Source: Acidobacteriota bacterium (GTDB lineage Bacteria > Acidobacteriota > Terriglobia > Bryobacterales > UBA6623). Taken from it: a stretch of 64,000 nucleotides of DNA. The position numbers and the translations under genes were made by a program. Location: NCBI GenBank assembly GCA_016125275.1, contig WGMB01000003.1, forward strand, positions 1,591,896 through 1,655,895, written 5' to 3'. Below are positions 51,505 through 64,000 of this stretch, piece by piece. The notes beneath the pieces were generated by a model. That model was not told where the DNA came from. It saw nothing but the letters and a program-made list of their open reading frames with translations, and did no database searches. Position 1 is the first letter of the stretch. Every line of letters begins with the position of its first letter.

Positions 51505-52605
51505 CTACCGGCTGTGCAGCTTCACCAGCCGGCGGCTCACCGCCGCCAGGTTCGGAGTCCCCGAAAGCCCCATCGCCAGCGCCAGCTCGCTCTGCAGCAG
51601 CGTCAGCAGCCGCTGCACGCCCTCGGCCCCGTAGGCCGCCAGGGCCCACAGCACCGGGCGCCCCAGCAGTACCGCATCGGCGCCGAAAGCCAGGGCCTTC
51701 AAAATATCCGAGCCCCGTCGAAAGCCCCCGTCCGCCAGCACCGGAACCCTCTCGCCCACCGCATCGGCTACCGCCGGCAGCGCTTCGATCGTCGACGGCA
51801 GCCCGTCCACGATCCGCCCTCCGTGGTTGGAGACGCACACCGCAGCCGCCCCGGCCTCCACGGCGGCCCGCGCTGCCTCGGCCGTCAGCAAACCCTTCGC
51901 CACTACGGGCAACCCGATCTCTTTCCGCAACCGTTCGAGGGCCGCTCGGCCGTCCGGACGCGTGGGCGCGATCCCCGCCGGCGGCCAGCCCTTGGCGCTT
52001 CCGCGCCGCACATCGGCGTCCAGCGGGCGCCTCGGCCCGCCGTCCAGCGTCAGCACCACTGCAACCGCCCCCAGCCGCTGCGCCTCGCGCACCCGCTCCA
52101 GGTCGCCGTCCGGGCTGGTCTGGATCCACCACGGCCCGCCCGCCGCCGGACCGATCTCCGCCAGCGGCCGCGAGCTCCGCTCGCTCACCACGGCCAGCGC
52201 CCGCGCCAGGGCCGCGCCCTTCACCGTCGCCGCCTCGCCCTCCGGGTGGAAGCGCCCCTGCAAGCCGGTCGGCCCGGCCAGGATCGGCGCGAACATCGTC
52301 TGCCCCAGCAACTCGCTCGAAAGGTCCAGCTCCGTCACGTCCACCAGCATCCGCGGCCGGAACGTGATGCGCTCGAAGAACTCCCGGTTGGCCCGCACCG
52401 TGCGCCCCGACTCCGCGCCCGCCGCGATGTGCTCGAACAGCTCCGGCGACAGACGGCTGCGGGCGGCCTCCTCGATCTCCCAGCAGTTGATCAGCCCGTC
52501 CAGCGGCGTGGTGCGCTCCGGGTCGCTCTCCGGACGCTGCGCCAGCAGCGGCGAGGCGAGAACGAGTCCCCAGAACCGGGCGATGGCTTCGCGGCGGCCG
52601 AGCAT
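51505..52605 (-). CDS. Alpha-hydroxy-acid oxidase family FMN enzyme, possibly exported
   Basis: 366 residues. The FMN-dependent family motif SNHGGRIVDG holds the catalytic histidine, and DGGFRRGSDILKALAFGAD the phosphate-binding arginine; ILAGPTGLQGRFHPEGE is also conserved. The N-terminus GRREAIARFWGLVLASPLLAQ looks like a Tat-type signal, unusual for this normally cytoplasmic or membrane-associated family. It oxidises lactate, glycolate or a similar acid. It is 30 bases upstream of purH on the same strand. Confidence 0.88.
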   Translation of the reverse strand: MLGRREAIARFWGLVLASPLLAQRPESDPERTTPLDGLINCWEIEEAARSRLSPELFEHIAAGAESGRTVRANREFFERITFRPRMLVDVTELDLSSELLGQTMFAPILAGPTGLQGRFHPEGEAATVKGAALARALAVVSERSSRPLAEIGPAAGGPWWIQTSPDGDLERVREAQRLGAVAVVLTLDGGPRRPLDADVRRGSAKGWPPAGIAPTRPDGRAALERLRKEIGLPVVAKGLLTAEAARAAVEAGAAAVCVSNHGGRIVDGLPSTIEALPAVADAVGERVPVLADGGFRRGSDILKALAFGADAVLLGRPVLWALAAYGAEGVQRLLTLLQSELALAMGLSGTPNLAAVSRRLVKLHSR

Positions 52606-52614
52606 GGCGGCCTC

Positions 52615-52620
52615 AAGCTA
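52615..52620 (-). promoter_or_regulatory. -10-like box of the hydroxy-acid oxidase gene
   Basis: TAGCTT on the minus strand, 9 bases before ATG 52605. Confidence 0.3.
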
Positions 52621-52675
52621 CCACGGCCGGGGCCCTGCGTGCGATGATGCGGGCGTTCGAGCCTTACGCGAGCCC

Positions 52676-55219
52676 TTGCTCGCGCCGCTGGCCGCCGTCG
52701 CCGGCGGCGTCTTCGCGGCCCGCTTCGCCGACTTCTCCACGCCCGACGTCGCCCTCGGCGCGGCCTGCGCCGCGCTGCTGGCCGCTTTCGGTCTGCGCCG
52801 GCCCGACCTTCACGCGACCCGCGCCGGCATGACCGCCTGCCTGCTCGGCTTCGCGCTCTGCGCCGCCTGGCTCCAGGGCCTCTCGCTGCGCCCGGCCCCG
52901 GATCGCGTCGACCAAGTCCTCGACCGGGCCGCCGTGGACTGGGACCTCCCGCTGCGCTGGCAAGGCTGGGTGCGCAGCCCGCCGCGCGACCTCGGCGACG
53001 CCGACCAGCTTGTCCTCGAAGTCGAATCGATCACTGGTGTCGGCCCGGCTCACGGAGGCGTGCAAGCGACGGTGGCGCGCGAGCCCGGCGACCCGCCTCT
53101 CGCCTTGCGCTACGGCGACCGCGTGGAATGGCTCGGCCGGCCCCGGCGGCTCGCCAACCTCGGCAATCCCGGCGCCTTCGACCGCGTCGGCTGGCTCGCC
53201 CGGCGCAGAATCCATCTGGCCGTCTCGGTCCGCCCTAAGGCTCCTTGGGCCCCTCTGCCCGGCCGCGGCGGCTCGCGTTTCGAGGCCTGGCGGTGGCGGC
53301 TCCGGGAGCTACTACGGCAGCGTCTGCGGGCTTTGGCCGCCCGCGCCGGGCGCTCCGGCTCCGACGCCGAGGCCTCTCTGGAGGCCATGCTGCTGGGCGA
53401 GCGCGCCGCCCTGCGCCCGGGCCTCCGCGCGGACTTTCAGCGCTCCGGGGTCTACCACGTGCTGGTCGTCTCCGGGCTCCACGTGGGCCTGCTCGCCGCC
53501 GCCGCCTTCTGGCTCTGCCGTCTCGTGGGAGCGCCTCGCCGCTGGGGAGCCGCGGCCGGTCTGGCGGCGGCGGTCGGCTACGCCCTGCTGCTCGAAGATT
53601 CCACGCCCACCGGCCGCGCCGCCTGGATGCTGGCCCTCTATACCGCCGCCGCCCTGCTGTTTCGCCAGCGCCGGCCCCTCAACGTCATCGCCGCCGTCGC
53701 TCTCGGCTTCCTGCTCTTCCAGCCGGCCCTGCTGGCCGACGTCGGCTTCCAGCTCTCGTTCCTGTCGGTCGGCCTCATCGCCGGCATCGTCGCGCCGCTG
53801 TTCGAACGCACCGTCGAGCCCTGGCGCCAAGCCTTCCGTCAGCCCTGGAACGCCGACCTGGACCTGCACCTCGACGCCGCCGCGGCGGCCCGCCGCGTCC
53901 GCCTGCGGGAGTGGCTGGAGCCTCTGGAGCGGCTTAGCCGCCTGCCGCGCCCCTGGGCTTCCGGGCTGCTGGTCGCGGCGGCGCGGTCGGGCCTGGCCGT
54001 CGTCTCCATGGCGCTGCTCTCCAGCGTCTTGAGCCTCGGGCTGGCGGGCCCTCTGGCCTGGCACTTTCAGCAGTTCGCCGGCGGCGGCCCCTTGGCCAAT
54101 CTCTTCGCCGCTCCCCTGCTCGCCGTCATCGTCCCTGCCGGCCTGCTGGGCCTGGCGCTCGACGCCGCGCCGCTGTACACGCTCGCCGCCCGCGCCGTCG
54201 AAGCCCTCGCCGCCGTCGCCCGCTGGACCGTCGAGACGCTGCCGCTCGACCGCGACGTCCCCCCGCCGCCCGCCTGGCTCGTGGCCGCCGCCCTGGCCGC
54301 CGCGGTCGGCTGGGGCTGGGCCCTGCGCCGGCCCCGCTTCGGCCTGCTCCTCGCCGCCGCGCCGGCCTGTCTCGCCGCCGCCTGCATCGTCGTGCATCCC
54401 TTCCCCCCAGCGATCGAGCCCGGCAAGCTCGAGCTGACCGCCATCGACGTGGGCCAGGGCGACGCCCTGTTGCTGGGGCTGCCCGACGGCTCCGCCGGCC
54501 TCGTCGACGCCGGCGGTCTGCCGCGCTACGGCCCCGACCCCGCATCGTTCGACATCGGCGAGGAGGTCGTCGCGCCCTACCTCTGGCGCCGCTCCATCCG
54601 CCGCCTGGCCTTCCTCGCCGTCACGCACCCCGACGCCGACCACCTGGGCGGAGCCGCCGCCATCCTCCGCCGATTCCCGGTCGACCGACTCTGGCTCGGC
54701 CCCGTCTCCTACCCGGCCTATGAGCCCTTGCTGGCTCTGGCGAAGGAGCGCGGCGTCCCCGTCGAGCGGCTTTCCCAAGGCCGCACGCTGTCGCTCGGCG
54801 GAGCGGCGTTCGACGCGCTCTGGCCTCCCGCGACGGCTTCTCCCCTGGCCGCCTCCAACAACAACTCCCTTACCTTGCTGGTCCGCTACGGCAGCCACGA
54901 GTTGCTGCTCGCCGGCGACCTGGAGTCCGACGGGGAGGCGGCCGTCGCCCAAGCCGTGCGCGGCTACAACGGCGAGGTCCTCAAGCTGGCCCACCACGGC
55001 AGCCGCACCTCCTCCACCTCTCTGCTGCTCCAAACCTTCCGCCCGGAGCTCGCCATCGCCTCGGTCGGCCTCGGCAACCCCTTCGGCCATCCCCACGCCG
55101 CCGCGCTGGACCGCCTCCGCGCCGCCCACGCGCGCCTGTATCGCACCGACCTCGACGGCGCGGTCACCGTGCTCAGCGACGGCCGCCGCCTCGAGATCCG
55201 CTCCTTCCGCCGGCCCTAG
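52676..55219 (+). CDS. comEC: ComEC/Rec2 DNA-uptake channel protein; 5' end uncertain
   Basis: 847 residues from TTG 52676. Domains in order: N-terminal DUF4131 with membrane helices (about 1-200), the Competence polytopic region (FQRSGVYHVLVVSGLHVGLLA near 255, then about eight helices) and a C-terminal MBL-fold domain with DVGQGDALLL, THPDADHLGG and LAHHGSRTSST. It forms the inner-membrane channel for single-stranded DNA in natural transformation; the MBL domain may degrade the other strand. The TTG has no ribosome binding site. An ATG at 52644 reads MMRAFEPYASP in another frame; one extra C in the run at 52673-52675 would join it to LLAPLAAV here. Confidence 0.9.
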   Translation: MLAPLAAVAGGVFAARFADFSTPDVALGAACAALLAAFGLRRPDLHATRAGMTACLLGFALCAAWLQGLSLRPAPDRVDQVLDRAAVDWDLPLRWQGWVRSPPRDLGDADQLVLEVESITGVGPAHGGVQATVAREPGDPPLALRYGDRVEWLGRPRRLANLGNPGAFDRVGWLARRRIHLAVSVRPKAPWAPLPGRGGSRFEAWRWRLRELLRQRLRALAARAGRSGSDAEASLEAMLLGERAALRPGLRADFQRSGVYHVLVVSGLHVGLLAAAAFWLCRLVGAPRRWGAAAGLAAAVGYALLLEDSTPTGRAAWMLALYTAAALLFRQRRPLNVIAAVALGFLLFQPALLADVGFQLSFLSVGLIAGIVAPLFERTVEPWRQAFRQPWNADLDLHLDAAAAARRVRLREWLEPLERLSRLPRPWASGLLVAAARSGLAVVSMALLSSVLSLGLAGPLAWHFQQFAGGGPLANLFAAPLLAVIVPAGLLGLALDAAPLYTLAARAVEALAAVARWTVETLPLDRDVPPPPAWLVAAALAAAVGWGWALRRPRFGLLLAAAPACLAAACIVVHPFPPAIEPGKLELTAIDVGQGDALLLGLPDGSAGLVDAGGLPRYGPDPASFDIGEEVVAPYLWRRSIRRLAFLAVTHPDADHLGGAAAILRRFPVDRLWLGPVSYPAYEPLLALAKERGVPVERLSQGRTLSLGGAAFDALWPPATASPLAASNNNSLTLLVRYGSHELLLAGDLESDGEAAVAQAVRGYNGEVLKLAHHGSRTSSTSLLLQTFRPELAIASVGLGNPFGHPHAAALDRLRAAHARLYRTDLDGAVTVLSDGRRLEIRSFRRP

Positions 55220-57458: not shown

Positions 57459-57872
57459 CTAGCGCACCACCTCGAACGCTCTGCGCGACGCCTCGCCAAA
57501 CCGGTAGACCGCGAAATGGTGATCGAACGTCGCCACTCGCTCCAGCCCCAGCCGCTCCATGACGGCGAAGCTTGTCCGATCGACGATCGAGAAGCTCTGA
57601 TCCGGAAAGCGCTCTCCAATCCGCATCGCTGTTTCCAGATCCCCGCTCCCAACTACCTCGATCGCGGCGACTCCCGCCATGATCTGCCGATAGAATCGCT
57701 CCCCGACGCCCCAACCGAGCCTATGGGCCAGGAGCCTCCAGGTCTCGATCAGAACGTGATCGGAGGTCCACAAAGACTCTCCCCGGGAAAGGATCTCGAC
57801 GGCGCGAGAGTGGCTGGCATCGCTTCGATCCGCCGCTGCGTACCAGGCGGACGTATCGACGAAAAGACTCAT
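57459..57872 (-). CDS. PIN-domain ribonuclease toxin (VapC type)
   Basis: 137 residues. The PIN metal-binding acids are visible: FVDTSAWYAA (D6), an acid in the middle (LIETWRLL, E44), and SIVDRTSFAVM plus FDHHF near the C-terminus. It is predicted to cleave RNA when free of its antitoxin. The ATG overlaps the antitoxin TGA as ATGA, the usual toxin-second arrangement. Confidence 0.9.
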   Translation of the reverse strand: MSLFVDTSAWYAAADRSDASHSRAVEILSRGESLWTSDHVLIETWRLLAHRLGWGVGERFYRQIMAGVAAIEVVGSGDLETAMRIGERFPDQSFSIVDRTSFAVMERLGLERVATFDHHFAVYRFGEASRRAFEVVR

Positions 57873-58117
57873 CTTCGAGGATGCGCCGCTTCAGCGGCTT
57901 GGTTGAGCATGACCTCTTTGTCGCGGGCGATGTCCGATCCTCCCGAATCGCCCAACGCAAAGATCGACGAAGGGTCCACTTGCGGACGACGAACTTGCAG
58001 GTCGCTTTCCACGAGTCGCCGCAGGTATTCGCTCGGCGAAAGGCCCAGCTGCGCCGCTCTGCTGCGCGCGGCCTGCTCGATCTCGGAGTCGAGAGTGATC
58101 GGGCTGGGAACCGGCAT
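57869..58117 (-). CDS. Ribbon-helix-helix type antitoxin (VapB-like)
   Basis: 82 residues. The N-terminus PSPITLDSEIEQAARSRAAQ plus GLSPSEYLRRLV has the beta-strand then two-helix layout of ribbon-helix-helix DNA-binding domains. The C-terminal half would wrap the toxin. It would repress its own operon and neutralise the PIN toxin. A TATACT box lies 6 bases before the ATG. Confidence 0.85.
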   Translation of the reverse strand: MPVPSPITLDSEIEQAARSRAAQLGLSPSEYLRRLVESDLQVRRPQVDPSSIFALGDSGGSDIARDKEVMLNQAAEAAHPRR

Positions 58118-59408: not shown

Positions 59409-60662
59409 ATGAGCAAACAACTCGAACGCTTCTCGCTCGGCGTCGGAGACCGCTTCGCCCACGAAGCCGTGGCGCAACTCCAGGCCTGCGTGCTGGCCGC
59501 CCGCCACGGCGTCGAGGTGGTTCCCGTCTGGAACAAGTCGCACCGTGAGCACAAGATCGTCGGCAGCAAGCCCGACTCGGTGCGCTTCGAGGCTGACGCC
59601 GCCGTCGACGCCCTGGACTGGAAGCATTCCTACTACGTCGACGCCGACCACATCAATCTACTCACCGTCGACGGCTACCTCGAAACCGCCGACTTCTTCA
59701 CCATCGACGTCGCCGACGAGATCGGCAAGGCCGCCCCGGCCGCCGACATCGACGCCTTCGTGGCGCGCCACCCCGAGCTCATCGGCGACCTGCGCATCGA
59801 AGGCATCGGGCGTTCCCTGCCCGCCACGGCGGACACCGTCCGCGCCACCGCCGGCAAGTACCTCGCCGCCGTCCGCCAAGCCGGACGCATCTACCGGCAC
59901 ATCGCCGCCCGCAAGCAGCAGGGCTCATTCATCACCGAGGTCTCCATGGACGAGACCGACTTTCCGCAAACGCCGCCCGAGCTGCTGGTCATCCTCGCCG
60001 CCATCGCCGACGAGGAGATCCCCATCCAGACCATCGCGCCCAAATTCACCGGCCGCTTCAACAAGGGCGTGGACTACGTCGGCGACGTGGAGCAGTTCGA
60101 GCGCGAGTTCCGCGACGACCTGGCCGTGATCGCCCACGCCGTGGCCGCCTACGGCCTGCCGTCCAACCTCAAGCTGAGCGTCCACTCCGGCAGCGACAAG
60201 TTTTCCATCTACGGGCCGATCCGCCGAGCCGTGCACGACACCGGCGCCGGCGTGCACGTCAAGACCGCCGGCACCACCTGGCTCGAAGAGCTCATCGGCC
60301 TGGCCGAGGACGGCGGCGAGGGCCTGGCCATGGCCCAGGAAGTCTACCGCGAAGCCTACGCCCACCGCGAGGCGCTCTGCGCCCCCTACGCGGCCGTCAT
60401 CGACATCGACGAGGCAAAGCTGCCCTCGCCTGCGACCGTGGACGACTGGTCTCCCGACGATTACGTGGCGGCCCTGCGGCACGACCCGCACAATCCGGCC
60501 TACAACCAGCACCTGCGCCAGCTCCTGCACGTGGGCTACAAGGTCGCCGCCCAAATGGAAGGCCGCTTTACGGCCATGCTGCACGAGGCCCGCGAGTCGA
60601 TCGTCCGCAACGTGACCCGCAACCTCTACGAGCGCCACATCCGGCCCGTCTTCATGGGCTAG
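59409..60662 (+). CDS. uxaE: Tagaturonate epimerase UxaE
   Basis: 417 residues. It matches the UxaE family (D-tagaturonate to D-fructuronate epimerase) at several places: YYVDADHINL, EVSMDETDFPQTPPELL in outline, GVDYVGDVEQFEREF and LSVHSGSDKFSIYGP followed by HVKTAGTTWLEEL. The metal ligands are expected among these acids and histidines. It lets galacturonate from pectin enter the glucuronate branch. No other uronate genes lie nearby. The start ATG 59409 gives the natural N-terminus MSKQLERFSLGVGDRF; a longer frame upstream overlaps the divergent gene. Confidence 0.92.
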   Translation: MSKQLERFSLGVGDRFAHEAVAQLQACVLAARHGVEVVPVWNKSHREHKIVGSKPDSVRFEADAAVDALDWKHSYYVDADHINLLTVDGYLETADFFTIDVADEIGKAAPAADIDAFVARHPELIGDLRIEGIGRSLPATADTVRATAGKYLAAVRQAGRIYRHIAARKQQGSFITEVSMDETDFPQTPPELLVILAAIADEEIPIQTIAPKFTGRFNKGVDYVGDVEQFEREFRDDLAVIAHAVAAYGLPSNLKLSVHSGSDKFSIYGPIRRAVHDTGAGVHVKTAGTTWLEELIGLAEDGGEGLAMAQEVYREAYAHREALCAPYAAVIDIDEAKLPSPATVDDWSPDDYVAALRHDPHNPAYNQHLRQLLHVGYKVAAQMEGRFTAMLHEARESIVRNVTRNLYERHIRPVFMG

Positions 60663-60673
60663 ACTCTTCTGCG

Positions 60674-61162
60674 ATGCCGCTGCCTTTCTGGGCGGAGTGG
60701 CTGGGCTGGGCGGCGACGCTGATCGCTCTCGGCATTACGGTTTGGCAATCGGTGAAGGCGCGCAAGGCTTCCGAGCTGGCGCGGGGAGAAGTTCTTCGCT
60801 TCCGAGACGTTCTCAACGTGCACGATCTCTCGGCGAGTCTCGCCGCAGGAATCGAAGCCCTCGACGGGCTCAGGCGAGATGGAAGCGGCCGCGAGCCCAA
60901 GGCTCTCCAAGATCGATTCGGACGGATCCGGCGGACTCTGGCCGAGCTGGCGGCGGGGCCGCTCCTGTCCGATAATGAGCGCACGGTGGCGCTCCGATCC
61001 CAGGGCCAAATCGTCCGTCTGTCTGAGCGAGTGGCGGACGCGCAAGTCCGGCCGTTCTCCCAAAGGGACCGCGCCGAGTTTGAAAAGGTGTTGATGGCCG
61101 AAGCCGACGCGCTGAGCGGAATACTCAGCCGGCTGCGCCGTCGGATCGGGGACGAACGATGA
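60674..61162 (+). CDS. Membrane-anchored helical protein, module copy A, first gene
   Basis: 162 residues, no family recognised. One membrane segment at about 9-25 (LGWAATLIALGITVWQSV) follows a tryptophan-rich PFWAEW start. Residues 27-162 are predicted mostly helical and highly charged, with coiled-coil-like character, and would face the cytoplasm by the positive-inside rule (KARKAS after the helix). Its TGA overlaps the ATG of the second gene (ATGA). TAGACT at 60660-60665, on the uxaE stop, is 8 bases upstream of the ATG. The layout matches the gene at 62581. Confidence 0.8.
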   Translation: MPLPFWAEWLGWAATLIALGITVWQSVKARKASELARGEVLRFRDVLNVHDLSASLAAGIEALDGLRRDGSGREPKALQDRFGRIRRTLAELAAGPLLSDNERTVALRSQGQIVRLSERVADAQVRPFSQRDRAEFEKVLMAEADALSGILSRLRRRIGDER

Positions 61163-61500
61163 CCCTCAATGAGAAGATCGCTCAGATCGTGCGCAACCTG
61201 AAGCACAAGACGGCCTCGGGCGAAGCGACCTGGGACACGATGATCGATGACGGGTTCATTACGAGCCGCCCGGACTCCTCGATCGTGATCGAGAAGACCC
61301 GCAGGACGCGGCCAGAGGGCTCCCGCAAGAACGCTCCTCTGCCCCCAAACGTCTTTCGGCTGATCCTGTCCGATTCGAAGGGCATGGAAGTGGCGGCTCT
61401 GGACGATTCGGATTTGCCTGACCCCACGGACCTGATCGAGCTCTACGAGCAGGTCGCCAAATCGAAGGCCGAAGTCCTTGCCGACGCCTGGCTCCGCTGA
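61159..61500 (+). CDS. Small soluble protein, module copy A, second gene
   Basis: 113 residues, no family recognised. It is homologous to the protein at 63116: both start MTLxEKxxxIV, then share a TW pair, the strictly kept PDSSI (here at 38-42), an ILxDxxGxEVxxL strand and a helical C-terminus. The fold looks like a small beta sheet followed by a long helix. It is translationally coupled to the membrane-anchored gene, so the products probably interact. Confidence 0.8.
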   Translation: MTLNEKIAQIVRNLKHKTASGEATWDTMIDDGFITSRPDSSIVIEKTRRTRPEGSRKNAPLPPNVFRLILSDSKGMEVAALDDSDLPDPTDLIELYEQVAKSKAEVLADAWLR

Positions 61501-61509
61501 TTCCGCTCG

Positions 61510-62553
61510 TCAGCCGATCTCCAACTCCGCCAAGAAAATCGCCGCCTTCTCGGTGGCGTGGCTGGAGTAGTACGACAGCAGCCCCCGCGTCGGGCTGATC
61601 TCGACGAAGCCAGGGTACGAGTTGTCCCCGCCGCTGGGCAGCGTGGCGATCTCCGTCAGCTCCGCCTTGTCCGGGTCCAGCCAGTACAGCGCGGTCACCG
61701 GGTCCTTGCCGTCGGTCATCCGGCGGCCCGCCACCAGGTAGCGGTCTCCCCAGCGCGCCAGCATCGGCCCGCCCAGGTAGCGGCCCAAGTCGCGCCGCCG
61801 GAAGGCTTCATACGGCGGTCGGGCTTGGCACAGCTCGGCGTTGCCGCGGTCGCCGCCGCGCGCCACCGCCAGCACCGCGCCGTCCTTCTCGAACAGAAAC
61901 GCCGTCTCGTTGCCGCCCGTTTCTTGGAACAGCCCCACCTTGTGGAAGATCAGCCCGTCGTCGCTCGCCATCAGCGCCGCCTCGACCGACGGACCACTGT
62001 CGGGATGCTTCTCGAACTTCTCGAACAGATGCTTGCGGCGGGCGCACAGCCAAGCCTTGCCGTCGTAGGCGGCCGCCCGCCATACGTAGTGACCGTAGGT
62101 CCCCTCCAGCATCTCCGGCCCGTGCCAATCCTGTCCGTCGGAGGACCAGGCGGCAAACCCCAACATCTCGTTCATGTCGCGGTTCTCCGGCGCCTTCTTG
62201 CCGGTGTACCAAGTGCCCGAATAGACGAACAGCTTGCCCTGAAAGACGAGAAAGTGCGGATCGCGCACATCGCGGTCCGGCACGGAAAACTCGTGAACCT
62301 GCCGCCAATCCTTCCCGTCCACGCTCTCCAGCACCAGAATCCGCGACGACGGAAACAGCATGTGCCCCTCCGGACACGTCCGGAACGTCAAGTACATCCG
62401 CCCCCGAAAGAGCACCATGTCCGTAAAGGCGTTGTGCTCGCCGTTGTGGAAGACCTGGCGGACGGAAACGACCTTCAAGGGAGCGGCGGCGGCGGCCAAA
62501 CGGGGCAGGAGAAGGCCTCCCGCGAGCAGCGTCCGGCGACTGATCGGGTGCAT
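61510..62553 (-). CDS. Exported sialidase-fold (exo-alpha-glycosidase-like) protein
   Basis: 347 residues from ATG 62553. A Tat-like signal (ISRRTLLAGGLLLPRLAAAA) leads into a beta-propeller with repeated short blades (MYLTFRTCPEGH, RDPHFLVFQGKLFVYSG, SSDGQDWHGPEML, ARWGDRYLVAGRRM). Asp-box-like SSDGQDW occurs, but the full arginine triad of active sialidases is not clear. It may act on or bind a glycan. It lies between the two copies of the membrane-anchor module, on the opposite strand. Confidence 0.82.
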   Translation of the reverse strand: MHPISRRTLLAGGLLLPRLAAAAAPLKVVSVRQVFHNGEHNAFTDMVLFRGRMYLTFRTCPEGHMLFPSSRILVLESVDGKDWRQVHEFSVPDRDVRDPHFLVFQGKLFVYSGTWYTGKKAPENRDMNEMLGFAAWSSDGQDWHGPEMLEGTYGHYVWRAAAYDGKAWLCARRKHLFEKFEKHPDSGPSVEAALMASDDGLIFHKVGLFQETGGNETAFLFEKDGAVLAVARGGDRGNAELCQARPPYEAFRRRDLGRYLGGPMLARWGDRYLVAGRRMTDGKDPVTALYWLDPDKAELTEIATLPSGGDNSYPGFVEISPTRGLLSYYSSHATEKAAIFLAELEIG

Positions 62554-62564
62554 GTCGTCAATGA

Positions 62565-62570
62565 TATACT
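62565..62570 (+). promoter_or_regulatory. -10 box of module copy B
   Basis: TATACT 10 bases before GTG 62581, in the 27-base gap between the two divergent genes. Confidence 0.45.
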
Positions 62571-62580
62571 TCCGGCGTCT

Positions 62581-63180
62581 GTGGAGGTTCCTCCGTGGAT
62601 CTTCGAACAGCCGCCGGGTTGGGTTTCCTGGCTGGTCTCTGGAGTCACGCTGCTTGGCTTCCCTCCCGCCTTCGTCGGGCTCGTTCTGGCGTGGGTCCAA
62701 CCGCGGCGCACCGTCCGAGCGGCCGAAGCCGCCGAGAAAGCCGCCCGCGATACTCGGGACAGGCTTCGGAGTTACGACGCAGCCATCTCCTGCCTCGAAG
62801 CGATCCGGCTCCTCCGAGAGATCAAGGCGGCGCTCAACTCTGCGCAATGGGAATCGATGTTGGACCGCCACGAGCAGCTCGCCATCGTGCTGATCCAAAT
62901 CAAGGAACGCTCCCAGGACTTGGTGACAGAAGCCGACAGAAAGAGCATGGGGGCCATGCTCAGGGAGCTCCACAAGATCGAGGCGCAGATCCGGCTGCGA
63001 TCCTCTCGCCCGCTGGACACGGAGGCGCTGGCGACTCTAGCATCAAGGCTGCAAGAGCAACTCAATCGCCTCGTGGAGATCTCGGCTCGCCTTCACGCCC
63101 ATCAGGAAATCAGCCATGACACTCGAAGAAAAAGTCGGCCGCATTGTGGATCGTCTCCTCGCAAAGACGATGGCGCATGA
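62581..63180 (+). CDS. Membrane-anchored helical protein, module copy B, first gene
   Basis: 199 residues from GTG 62581; the frame is open much further upstream but only as an antisense shadow. A tryptophan-rich start (VEVPPWIFEQPPGW) precedes one membrane segment at about 15-38 (VSGVTLLGFPPAFVGLVLAW), then PRR and a long charged helical region with coiled-coil character (about 40-175). It has the same architecture as the 60674 gene, though sequence identity looks low. It overlaps the second gene by 65 bases in another frame. Confidence 0.75.
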   Translation: MEVPPWIFEQPPGWVSWLVSGVTLLGFPPAFVGLVLAWVQPRRTVRAAEAAEKAARDTRDRLRSYDAAISCLEAIRLLREIKAALNSAQWESMLDRHEQLAIVLIQIKERSQDLVTEADRKSMGAMLRELHKIEAQIRLRSSRPLDTEALATLASRLQEQLNRLVEISARLHAHQEISHDTRRKSRPHCGSSPRKDDGA

Positions 63181-63451
63181 GATCACCTGGGAGAAGTCTT
63201 TCGACGGCAACGTCGGCTACACGTTCCCGGACTCCTCAATCGAGGTCTACCGTTCCGTGACTCCGGATCAAGAAGAGCAGGTCGGCGTGATCCTCTACGA
63301 CGAGAACGGCCGAGAAGTCCAGACGCTGCCGGGCGACCGCATCGGACGCCTCGAAGAGCTCAGGAAGCTCCACGACCTAGCCCAAAAGGATGTTCTCGGC
63401 GTCAACAAGATGGTCGACGCCCTGCTCGAACGCCTCGAGCGCGCCTCCTAA
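63116..63451 (+). CDS. Small soluble protein, module copy B, second gene
   Basis: 111 residues, homologue of the 61159 protein: [13 protein letters not shown] near 24, PDSSI at 37-41, [16 protein letters not shown] and a charged helical C-terminus (LLERLERAS). No family recognised and no catalytic motif evident. Its stop overlaps the stop of the convergent DUF1501 gene by four bases. Confidence 0.82.
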
Positions 63452-64000
63452 GCCAACAGCTTCTCCACCACGTTCCCGTGGACGTCGGTCAGCCGGAAAT
63501 CCCTGCCCTGGAAGCGGTATGTCAGCTTCTTGTGGTCAAAGCCCAACAGGTGCAGCAGCGTCGCGTGCAAGTCGTGCACGTGGACCTTGTCCTCCACCAC
63601 ATTGAAGCCCAGATCGTCGCTCTGGCCCAGCGTGATGCCCGGCTTCACGCCGCCGCCGGCCAGCCACATCGTAAACGCGTTGGGGTGATGGTCGCGCCCG
63701 TCGTCGCCGCCCTGCACCATCGGGGTCCGGCCGAACTCGCCGCCCCAAATCACCAGCGTATCCTCCAGCATCCCGCGGTTCTTCAGGTCTTTGATCAGCG
63801 CCGCCGCGGCCTGGTCGGTCGACTCGCAGTTCGCCTTGATCGCCTTCGTCAGGTTGCCGTGCTGATCCCAGGCCTCATGGAACAGCGTCACGAACCGCAC
63901 GCCCTTCTCCACCAGTCGCCGCGCCAGCAGGCAGTTGTTGGCGAATGAGCCCACGCCCGGCTTCGCGCCGTACATATCGAGCACGTGCTGCGGCTCGTTG
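63448..64000 (-). CDS. DUF1501 family protein (partial, N-terminus beyond the right edge)
   Basis: The C-terminal 183 residues are visible, ending [13 protein letters not shown]1501 landmarks are [49 protein letters not shown] and [19 protein letters not shown]. It is closer in motif wording to the 10146 copy ([15 protein letters not shown]) than to the 13228 copy. A PSD1-type partner would be expected upstream, outside the window. Confidence 0.9.

Follow-up and report, generated by a model that had tools for sequence, protein, structure and literature searches.

The locus and its genes

The stretch of DNA analyzed in this work (64,000 nucleotides (nt), hereafter the window) covers positions 1591896-1655895 of contig WGMB01000003.1 within the 7.55 Mb genome of an Acidobacteriota bacterium. 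It holds two copies of a two-gene module, in which a gene for a protein with a predicted membrane anchor (the anchor) is followed by a gene for a small acidic protein (the small partner). An earlier note on this DNA had described two copies of this layout, and both are present where it had placed them. In the following, the two pairs are called W1 and W2, other loci carry L-numbers, and genomes carry G-numbers, with G000 being the window's own genome. Protein lengths are given in amino acids (aa), together with the isoelectric point (pI) where it was computed.

60674-61162, + strand: anchor 1, 162 aa; single N-terminal hydrophobic stretch at approximately residues 5-23, followed by a helical body that is basic
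61159-61500, + strand: small partner 1, 113 aa, pI 5.2
61510 to ~62553, - strand: gene of an exported-looking protein between both pairs, outside the module; start picked by eye
~62581-63180, + strand: anchor 2, ~199 aa from GTG 62581; hydrophobic stretch at approximately residues 18-36, then a helical body
63116-63451, + strand: small partner 2, 111 aa, pI 4.8; alpha-beta4-alpha-alpha domain

Anchor and small genes overlap by 4 nt in pair 1 and by 65 nt in pair 2. The start of anchor 2 is uncertain (GTG 62581 or GTG 62548), and its final ~20 residues, which make up the overlap with the small gene, lie outside the region aligned across the family. Beyond these two, no other copy of the small gene was found in the own genome at an E-value (E) of 0.01, with two weaker matches (L003 and L004) at E 0.31 and 1, and a third weak anchor-like match (L088, E 0.007) was dropped as its open reading frames (ORFs) match neither profile.

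Two gene families without a match in the searched libraries

The two small partners are homologues, as the earlier note had proposed, and share 36% identity over 81 columns in BLASTP (E 2e-10). The anchors, by contrast, do not match each other in a pairwise comparison (E 0.12). Profiles were built from 14 pairs of other genomes and searched against all window ORFs of at least 50 aa. The anchor profile retrieved anchor 2 (E 4.2e-22) and anchor 1 (E 2.4e-17), with the next window ORF at 0.75, and the small profile retrieved small 2 (E 3.5e-13) and small 1 (E 3.6e-08), with the next at 0.14. Shuffled controls (400 W1/W2 sequences per family) reached top scores of 9.1 bits for the anchor and 6.0 bits for the small profile, and in a leave-one-out test on an earlier set, 12 of 12 small proteins were recovered at E 9.4e-09 or better and 10 of 10 anchors at 4e-08 or better. 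Based on these profile matches, controls, and leave-one-out results, both gene families are, as judged from sequence, real, and both window copies are members. The earlier description of the anchors as sharing architecture but little sequence thus holds for the pairwise comparison, but it needs correcting at the family level, since profiles of other genomes find both anchors.

Neither protein could be assigned to a known family in Pfam, NCBIfam, PADLOC, or PHROGs, in agreement with the earlier note. The four window proteins gave no Pfam or NCBIfam match above cut-off, a best PHROGs match of E 0.0098, and no PADLOC family at E 10; their weak matches to DASH_Dad3, CcmD, Cas3, and others in Pfam and NCBIfam were rejected as below the cut-offs. 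The relatives likewise had no match above cut-off in the Pfam, NCBIfam, and PHROGs libraries, and ten of them showed weak PADLOC matches (best E 0.0022). No publication on the pair was found by targeted searches of the titles and abstract openings of one open-licence library. Because it turns up in scattered members of two phyla, the pair is regarded as a real, though uncharacterised, system.

Distribution and pairing

Profile searches recovered the pair in other Acidobacteriota as well as in Pseudomonadota. Both genes are present at 19 loci, the window included, and the anchor comes first in all of them. The underlying search samples overlap, and all counts of spread are lower bounds because, in some genomes, not every first-look candidate was scored.

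Searches that started from the small protein led to 19 accepted loci, including the two of the window. An anchor lies directly upstream in 13 of these (W1, W2, L007, L008, L036, L041, L042, L043, L045, L058, L060, L061, and L067), with L007 being decayed and the anchor of L041 broken. The small domain occurs without an anchor at the other six loci, alone at L033 (upstream sequence examined over only ~460 nt) and L068, and fused at L069-L072 (1489 to ~2661-2967). The fused form was found in four Pseudomonadota genomes, where the small domain makes up the N-terminal part of proteins of 390-492 aa with long acidic tails and the ends RFNPWN or RFNPWS; no anchor was found in these genomes. A dedicated re-search for anchors at E 0.01 in seven genomes (G388, G1081, G1012, G1152, G1233, G1247, and G400, the last of which was included for a small match, L038, that was later dropped) found none.

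The reverse search applied the anchor profile to 181 genomes of the class and matched nine, three of them already known (G000, G090, and G429). All six new anchors (L089, L090, L091, L093, L094, and L095) have a small gene immediately downstream, and no accepted anchor lacked a small gene in this search, although its loose first look could miss lone anchors. The earlier note had regarded small homologues mostly without an adjacent anchor gene as evidence against its two-component proposal; with the majority of small loci and every new anchor paired, the opposite was found, and the module behaves as a two-gene unit.

Within Acidobacteriota, the small-first searches returned the own genome only, both with a single sequence in the taxonomic family (1 of 18 genomes) and with a two-row profile in the phylum (1 of 396). 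Among 41 relatives, the real matches beyond the own genome were those in G429 and G004; the others were dropped at E 0.2 or worse, with 18 of the 41 genomes matching something at E 10. A three-row profile matched 7 of 396 genomes of the phylum at E 0.05, and G000, G388, and G090 stand. Six loci (L034, L035, L037, and L038 from this search, and L046 and L047 from the search of the order) were discarded as the 16-pair profile gives no match at E 0.05 for 10,000 sequences. With a five-row profile, 8 of 250 genomes of the order matched at E 0.01 and seven were kept, so presence is patchy. GTDB contigs yielded three loci, one of them new. Pseudomonadota gave matches in 7 of 398 genomes, and the order of Altererythrobacter, which we take to be Sphingomonadales, in 3 of 296. 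No match was found in plasmids, phages, and IMG/VR contigs by tblastn or pattern scans, which as single-sequence or narrow searches would miss distant members, the phage records having been searched once.

Gene overlap and evolution of the copies

Gene spacing was measured for 16 pairs, excluding L007, L041, and L095 with their broken anchors. The two genes overlap in 13 pairs, seven times by exactly 4 nt, and lie 1, 2, and 40 nt apart in the remaining three. Since gene 2 usually overlaps gene 1, anchor and small partner are probably translationally coupled.

Anchor and small proteins diverge in a correlated manner across these 16 pairs (Mantel r 0.44, p 5e-5). Groups common to both trees are L093 with L094, L036 with L091, and a six-member group that adds L042 and L090 to these four. 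Both trees also unite the three pairs found in the Altererythrobacter order, with L067 as an additional member in the small tree. The six-member split is supported by 100/99 in the anchor tree and weakly by 50/73 in the small tree, and many inner branches are weak.

The anchors of W1 and W2 were sisters in 0% of 200 bootstraps, and their small partners, which group with L045 (95/94), were strict sisters in 10%. As the trees do not join W1 and W2, the window copies are, on this phylogenetic evidence, old paralogues or separate arrivals and no recent duplication. The word duplicated in the earlier note is thus correct with regard to the presence of two copies, but not with regard to a recent local duplication of the pair.

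Protein anatomy and structure

In each of the 11 anchors computed, a single hydrophobic stretch (mean hydropathy 1.38-2.22) lies at the N-terminus. The positive-inside rule relates the charge around a membrane helix to its topology. As 0-1 K/R residues precede the helix and 1-5 follow it in all 11 anchors, the anchor body is predicted to face the cytosol. The model of anchor 2 is all-helical and of low confidence, with a predicted local distance difference test (pLDDT) score of 60.5. The anchor profile matches WA20 and SUWA (E 0.002), which are designed helical proteins, and this match was taken as an indication of a helical bundle only.

The small proteins are acidic, with a pI of 5.2 or less in 14 of 15 (L045, 6.2; the list includes the later dropped L038). 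The model of small 2 is confident (mean pLDDT 89.3) and shows the order helix, four strands, two main helices. No match in the Protein Data Bank (PDB) was found with Foldseek at E 0.001, and no family stands out in VIA, where the best hit reached Z 4.8 with a root-mean-square deviation (rmsd) of 3.3 over 57 residues. The best fold match is Q9FZU9 (BFVD model, E 5.3e-4), an uncharacterised protein of Bacillus phage GA-1, but the template modelling (TM) scores are only 0.40/0.45 at rmsd 8.4 and 18% identity. PUR repeats, which are beta4-alpha nucleic-acid-binding domains, show a weak partial likeness of beta-sheet and helix (3nm7_B, Foldseek E 0.59, TM 0.32/0.45; 5fgp_A, VIA Z 3.4, 43 residues, rmsd 2.0); both matches are far below a confident match, and the small protein differs in being acidic. 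Because of this acidic body, nucleic-acid binding by the body of the small protein appears unlikely from its sequence. A search of the small profile against solved structures matched solely fibrinogen chains (E 0.07), which were rejected.

Genomic neighborhood

Around 18 loci, 75 neighbor proteins picked from 234 ORFs were scanned, two of them with trimmed starts. PADLOC matched six families with at most two proteins each, so the surroundings are not a defence island, and among the best 25 of 85 Pfam families the neighbors are mainly housekeeping proteins. The Pfam tallies, in which members are not named, include RecA (1), Ribonuc_red_sm (3), and CoA_trans (4). The pair lies downstream of recA at L008, of nrdB at L058, L060, and L061, and of a tagaturonate-epimerase-like gene (UxaE; Pfam PF16257, E 5.6e-47) at W1, where the distance is 11 nt. 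The UxaE gene is present in five of seven relatives tested, all five without a small-gene match; by eye, the next ORF there is N-formylglutamate-amidohydrolase-like in four of the five and methyltransferase-like in the fifth.

At L093 (1477-2312) and L095 (1477-2314), the pair is inserted between the two CoA transferase subunit genes scoA and scoB. The L093 pair overlaps both by 4 nt, forming a close-packed four-gene unit, and at L095 the anchor is frameshifted while the small gene is open. The upstream gene of L094 appears by eye to be the same, and its contig ends before the second CoA transferase gene. The nrdB-adjacent pairs (L058, 6400-8384; L060, 1465-3321; L061, 1486-3348) are divergent copies and account for all three pairs found in the Altererythrobacter order. 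By eye, an HTH-like gene and an HNH-like gene follow downstream at L060 and L061. Divergent copies directly after nrdB, followed by such genes, suggest that this location is an exchange site. A tRNA-Gln gene identified with ARAGORN lies shortly before the decayed pair of L007 (1438-2640). The L036 pair is directly preceded by the gene of a 310 aa protein without a Pfam match at E 0.01 (L055, 8257-9189), a possible third member at that locus.

In the window, pair 2 begins 27 nt away from where the exported-looking gene on the opposite strand probably starts. This gene has no Pfam match at E 0.01, so the search gave no confirmation of the sialidase fold that the earlier note had assigned to it. 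One weak sigma-70-like site (0.4 expected) and five terminator-like sites (2.2 expected) occur within 60500-63600, none of which could be linked to the pairs. Flanking repeats of at least 16 nt were absent at the loci checked, the window pairs and the L093 pair; besides short chance matches, the only repeat at the window pairs is the conserved stretch that encodes PDSSI. Elsewhere in the window, the C-terminal part of an ORF at 51827-55219 (+ strand) resembles by eye a DNA-uptake channel of the ComEC type that includes a metallo-hydrolase domain. Also by eye, 57459-58117 (- strand) looks like a toxin-antitoxin pair, in which a small DNA-binding-like ORF (57869-58117) comes before a PIN-domain-like ORF (57459-57872) and overlaps it by 4 nt.

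C-terminal tips of the small proteins

A C-terminal PF is present in five of the 21 small proteins with a single domain: L058, L060, L061, L067, and the decayed L007. Their tips are EDDFPF, SDEVPF, LDDTPF, LRAPF, and DDDVPF, with PF following acidic residues in all except the LRAPF of L067. The same end was found in 4 of 1300 other ORFs of at least 100 aa in the fetched regions, counted in all six frames and thus including many that are not genes. The enrichment corresponds to a binomial probability of 5e-9, or 0.0014 when counted as two lineages. The C-terminal motif of the single-stranded DNA-binding protein (SSB-Ct) is DDDIPF (PMC5872125), and acidic residues with a terminal PF are what three Pseudomonadota proteins (L058, L060, and L061) and the acidobacterial L007 have in common with it.

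A reading of the small protein as a carrier of an SSB-like tip would draw on this enrichment and likeness and on the recA and nrdB neighbors, yet it is considered unlikely. The window copies end in DAWLR and LERAS and belong to the 16 of 21 members without a PF end, no DNA-binding family was found, and the recA and nrdB neighbors are possibly chance sites. In contrast to SSB, the body of the small protein is itself acidic; its model follows an alpha-beta4-alpha-alpha order. In its boldest and quite improbable form, this would be an undescribed membrane-tethered complex of at least two phyla, whose small protein would imitate the SSB tip in some lineages and would draw or sequester DNA repair or replication proteins at the inner membrane, guarding against phage or controlling repair.

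Function of the pair

That anchor and small partner work together is well supported by their pairing, gene overlap, and correlated divergence. Two-gene toxin-antitoxin and abortive-infection pairs with a small membrane effector are a known general kind of system, and we tentatively favor an accessory effector-inhibitor module akin to them. In this proposal, gene 1 would provide a protein with one N-terminal membrane helix and a helical-bundle body facing the cytosol, and gene 2 a small acidic alpha/beta protein, which would bind the anchor body at the membrane in a physical complex. The anchor would most likely be the active, potentially costly part, which the small protein may restrain or trigger. 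Such a costly effector with a small inhibitor or trigger fits because no anchor was seen alone and because frame changes disrupt the anchor more often (4 of 19 pair loci: L007, L041, L095, and, near its end, L043) than the small gene (1 of 19, L007).

The module resembles toxin-antitoxin and abortive-infection pairs in its two short, adjacent genes on one strand, mostly overlapping or else closely spaced, in its patchy presence, and in combining one membrane protein with one small acidic soluble protein. As for a toxin not kept without its partner, every accepted anchor lies beside a small gene. It differs from them in giving no PADLOC or NCBIfam match above cut-off, in having the putative effector gene first, and in its housekeeping neighbors. 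The proposal is held tentatively because the counts are low and a cellular role would fit the housekeeping surroundings just as well. Several further points weigh against it: large samples had just a fraction of their first-look candidates scored (e.g., 19 of 73 in one genome), so that lone anchors may be missed; the asymmetry in broken anchors involves too few cases for a test; the assemblies are mostly split into many contigs, and some are named metagenome assemblies; functional coupling and shared ancestry would give the same signal in the Mantel test; and the positions that are stable within a lineage (after nrdB for 3 of 3 pairs found in the Altererythrobacter order, next to scoA in three genomes belonging to family f91) are as compatible with a settled role in the cell as with a mobile toxin pair.

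A role in anti-phage defence, in which the pair would damage the membrane and the small protein would act as the sensor, appears rather unlikely. The pair is patchy, fast-diverging, and sometimes broken, and single neighbors would suit this role, namely a SIR2 gene at L033 (no anchor), a KAP NTPase gene at L067, and, nearby at L049, an HTH_3 protein and a weak integrase-like fragment. However, the pairs lie outside defence islands, PADLOC recognized none of the window proteins and gave weak matches for the ten relatives, and the plasmid, phage, and IMG/VR searches, narrow as they were, found no copy. The close packing with scoA and scoB at L093 and with UxaE at W1 would instead agree with a regulatory role in the cell, in which the anchored pair is linked to its host operon and adjusts the neighboring enzyme or an envelope process, but the neighboring enzymes vary by lineage (recA, nrdB, scoAB, UxaE) and five relatives keep the UxaE gene without the pair, so we regard this role, too, as rather improbable. 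Varying sites, patchiness, broken copies, and the decayed copy by the tRNA-Gln gene might also be expected of a selfish or near-neutral cassette hitch-hiking on housekeeping promoters. This we consider very doubtful, as a two-gene structure and domains conserved over two phyla argue for selection, and the window and L093 pairs lack flanking repeats of at least 16 nt.

Two families absent from the searched libraries, one of them with a confidently modeled fold, together make up a single module that recurs in two phyla. Two hypothetical proteins thereby become a testable system, for which the SSB-like tips provide a concrete molecular lead.

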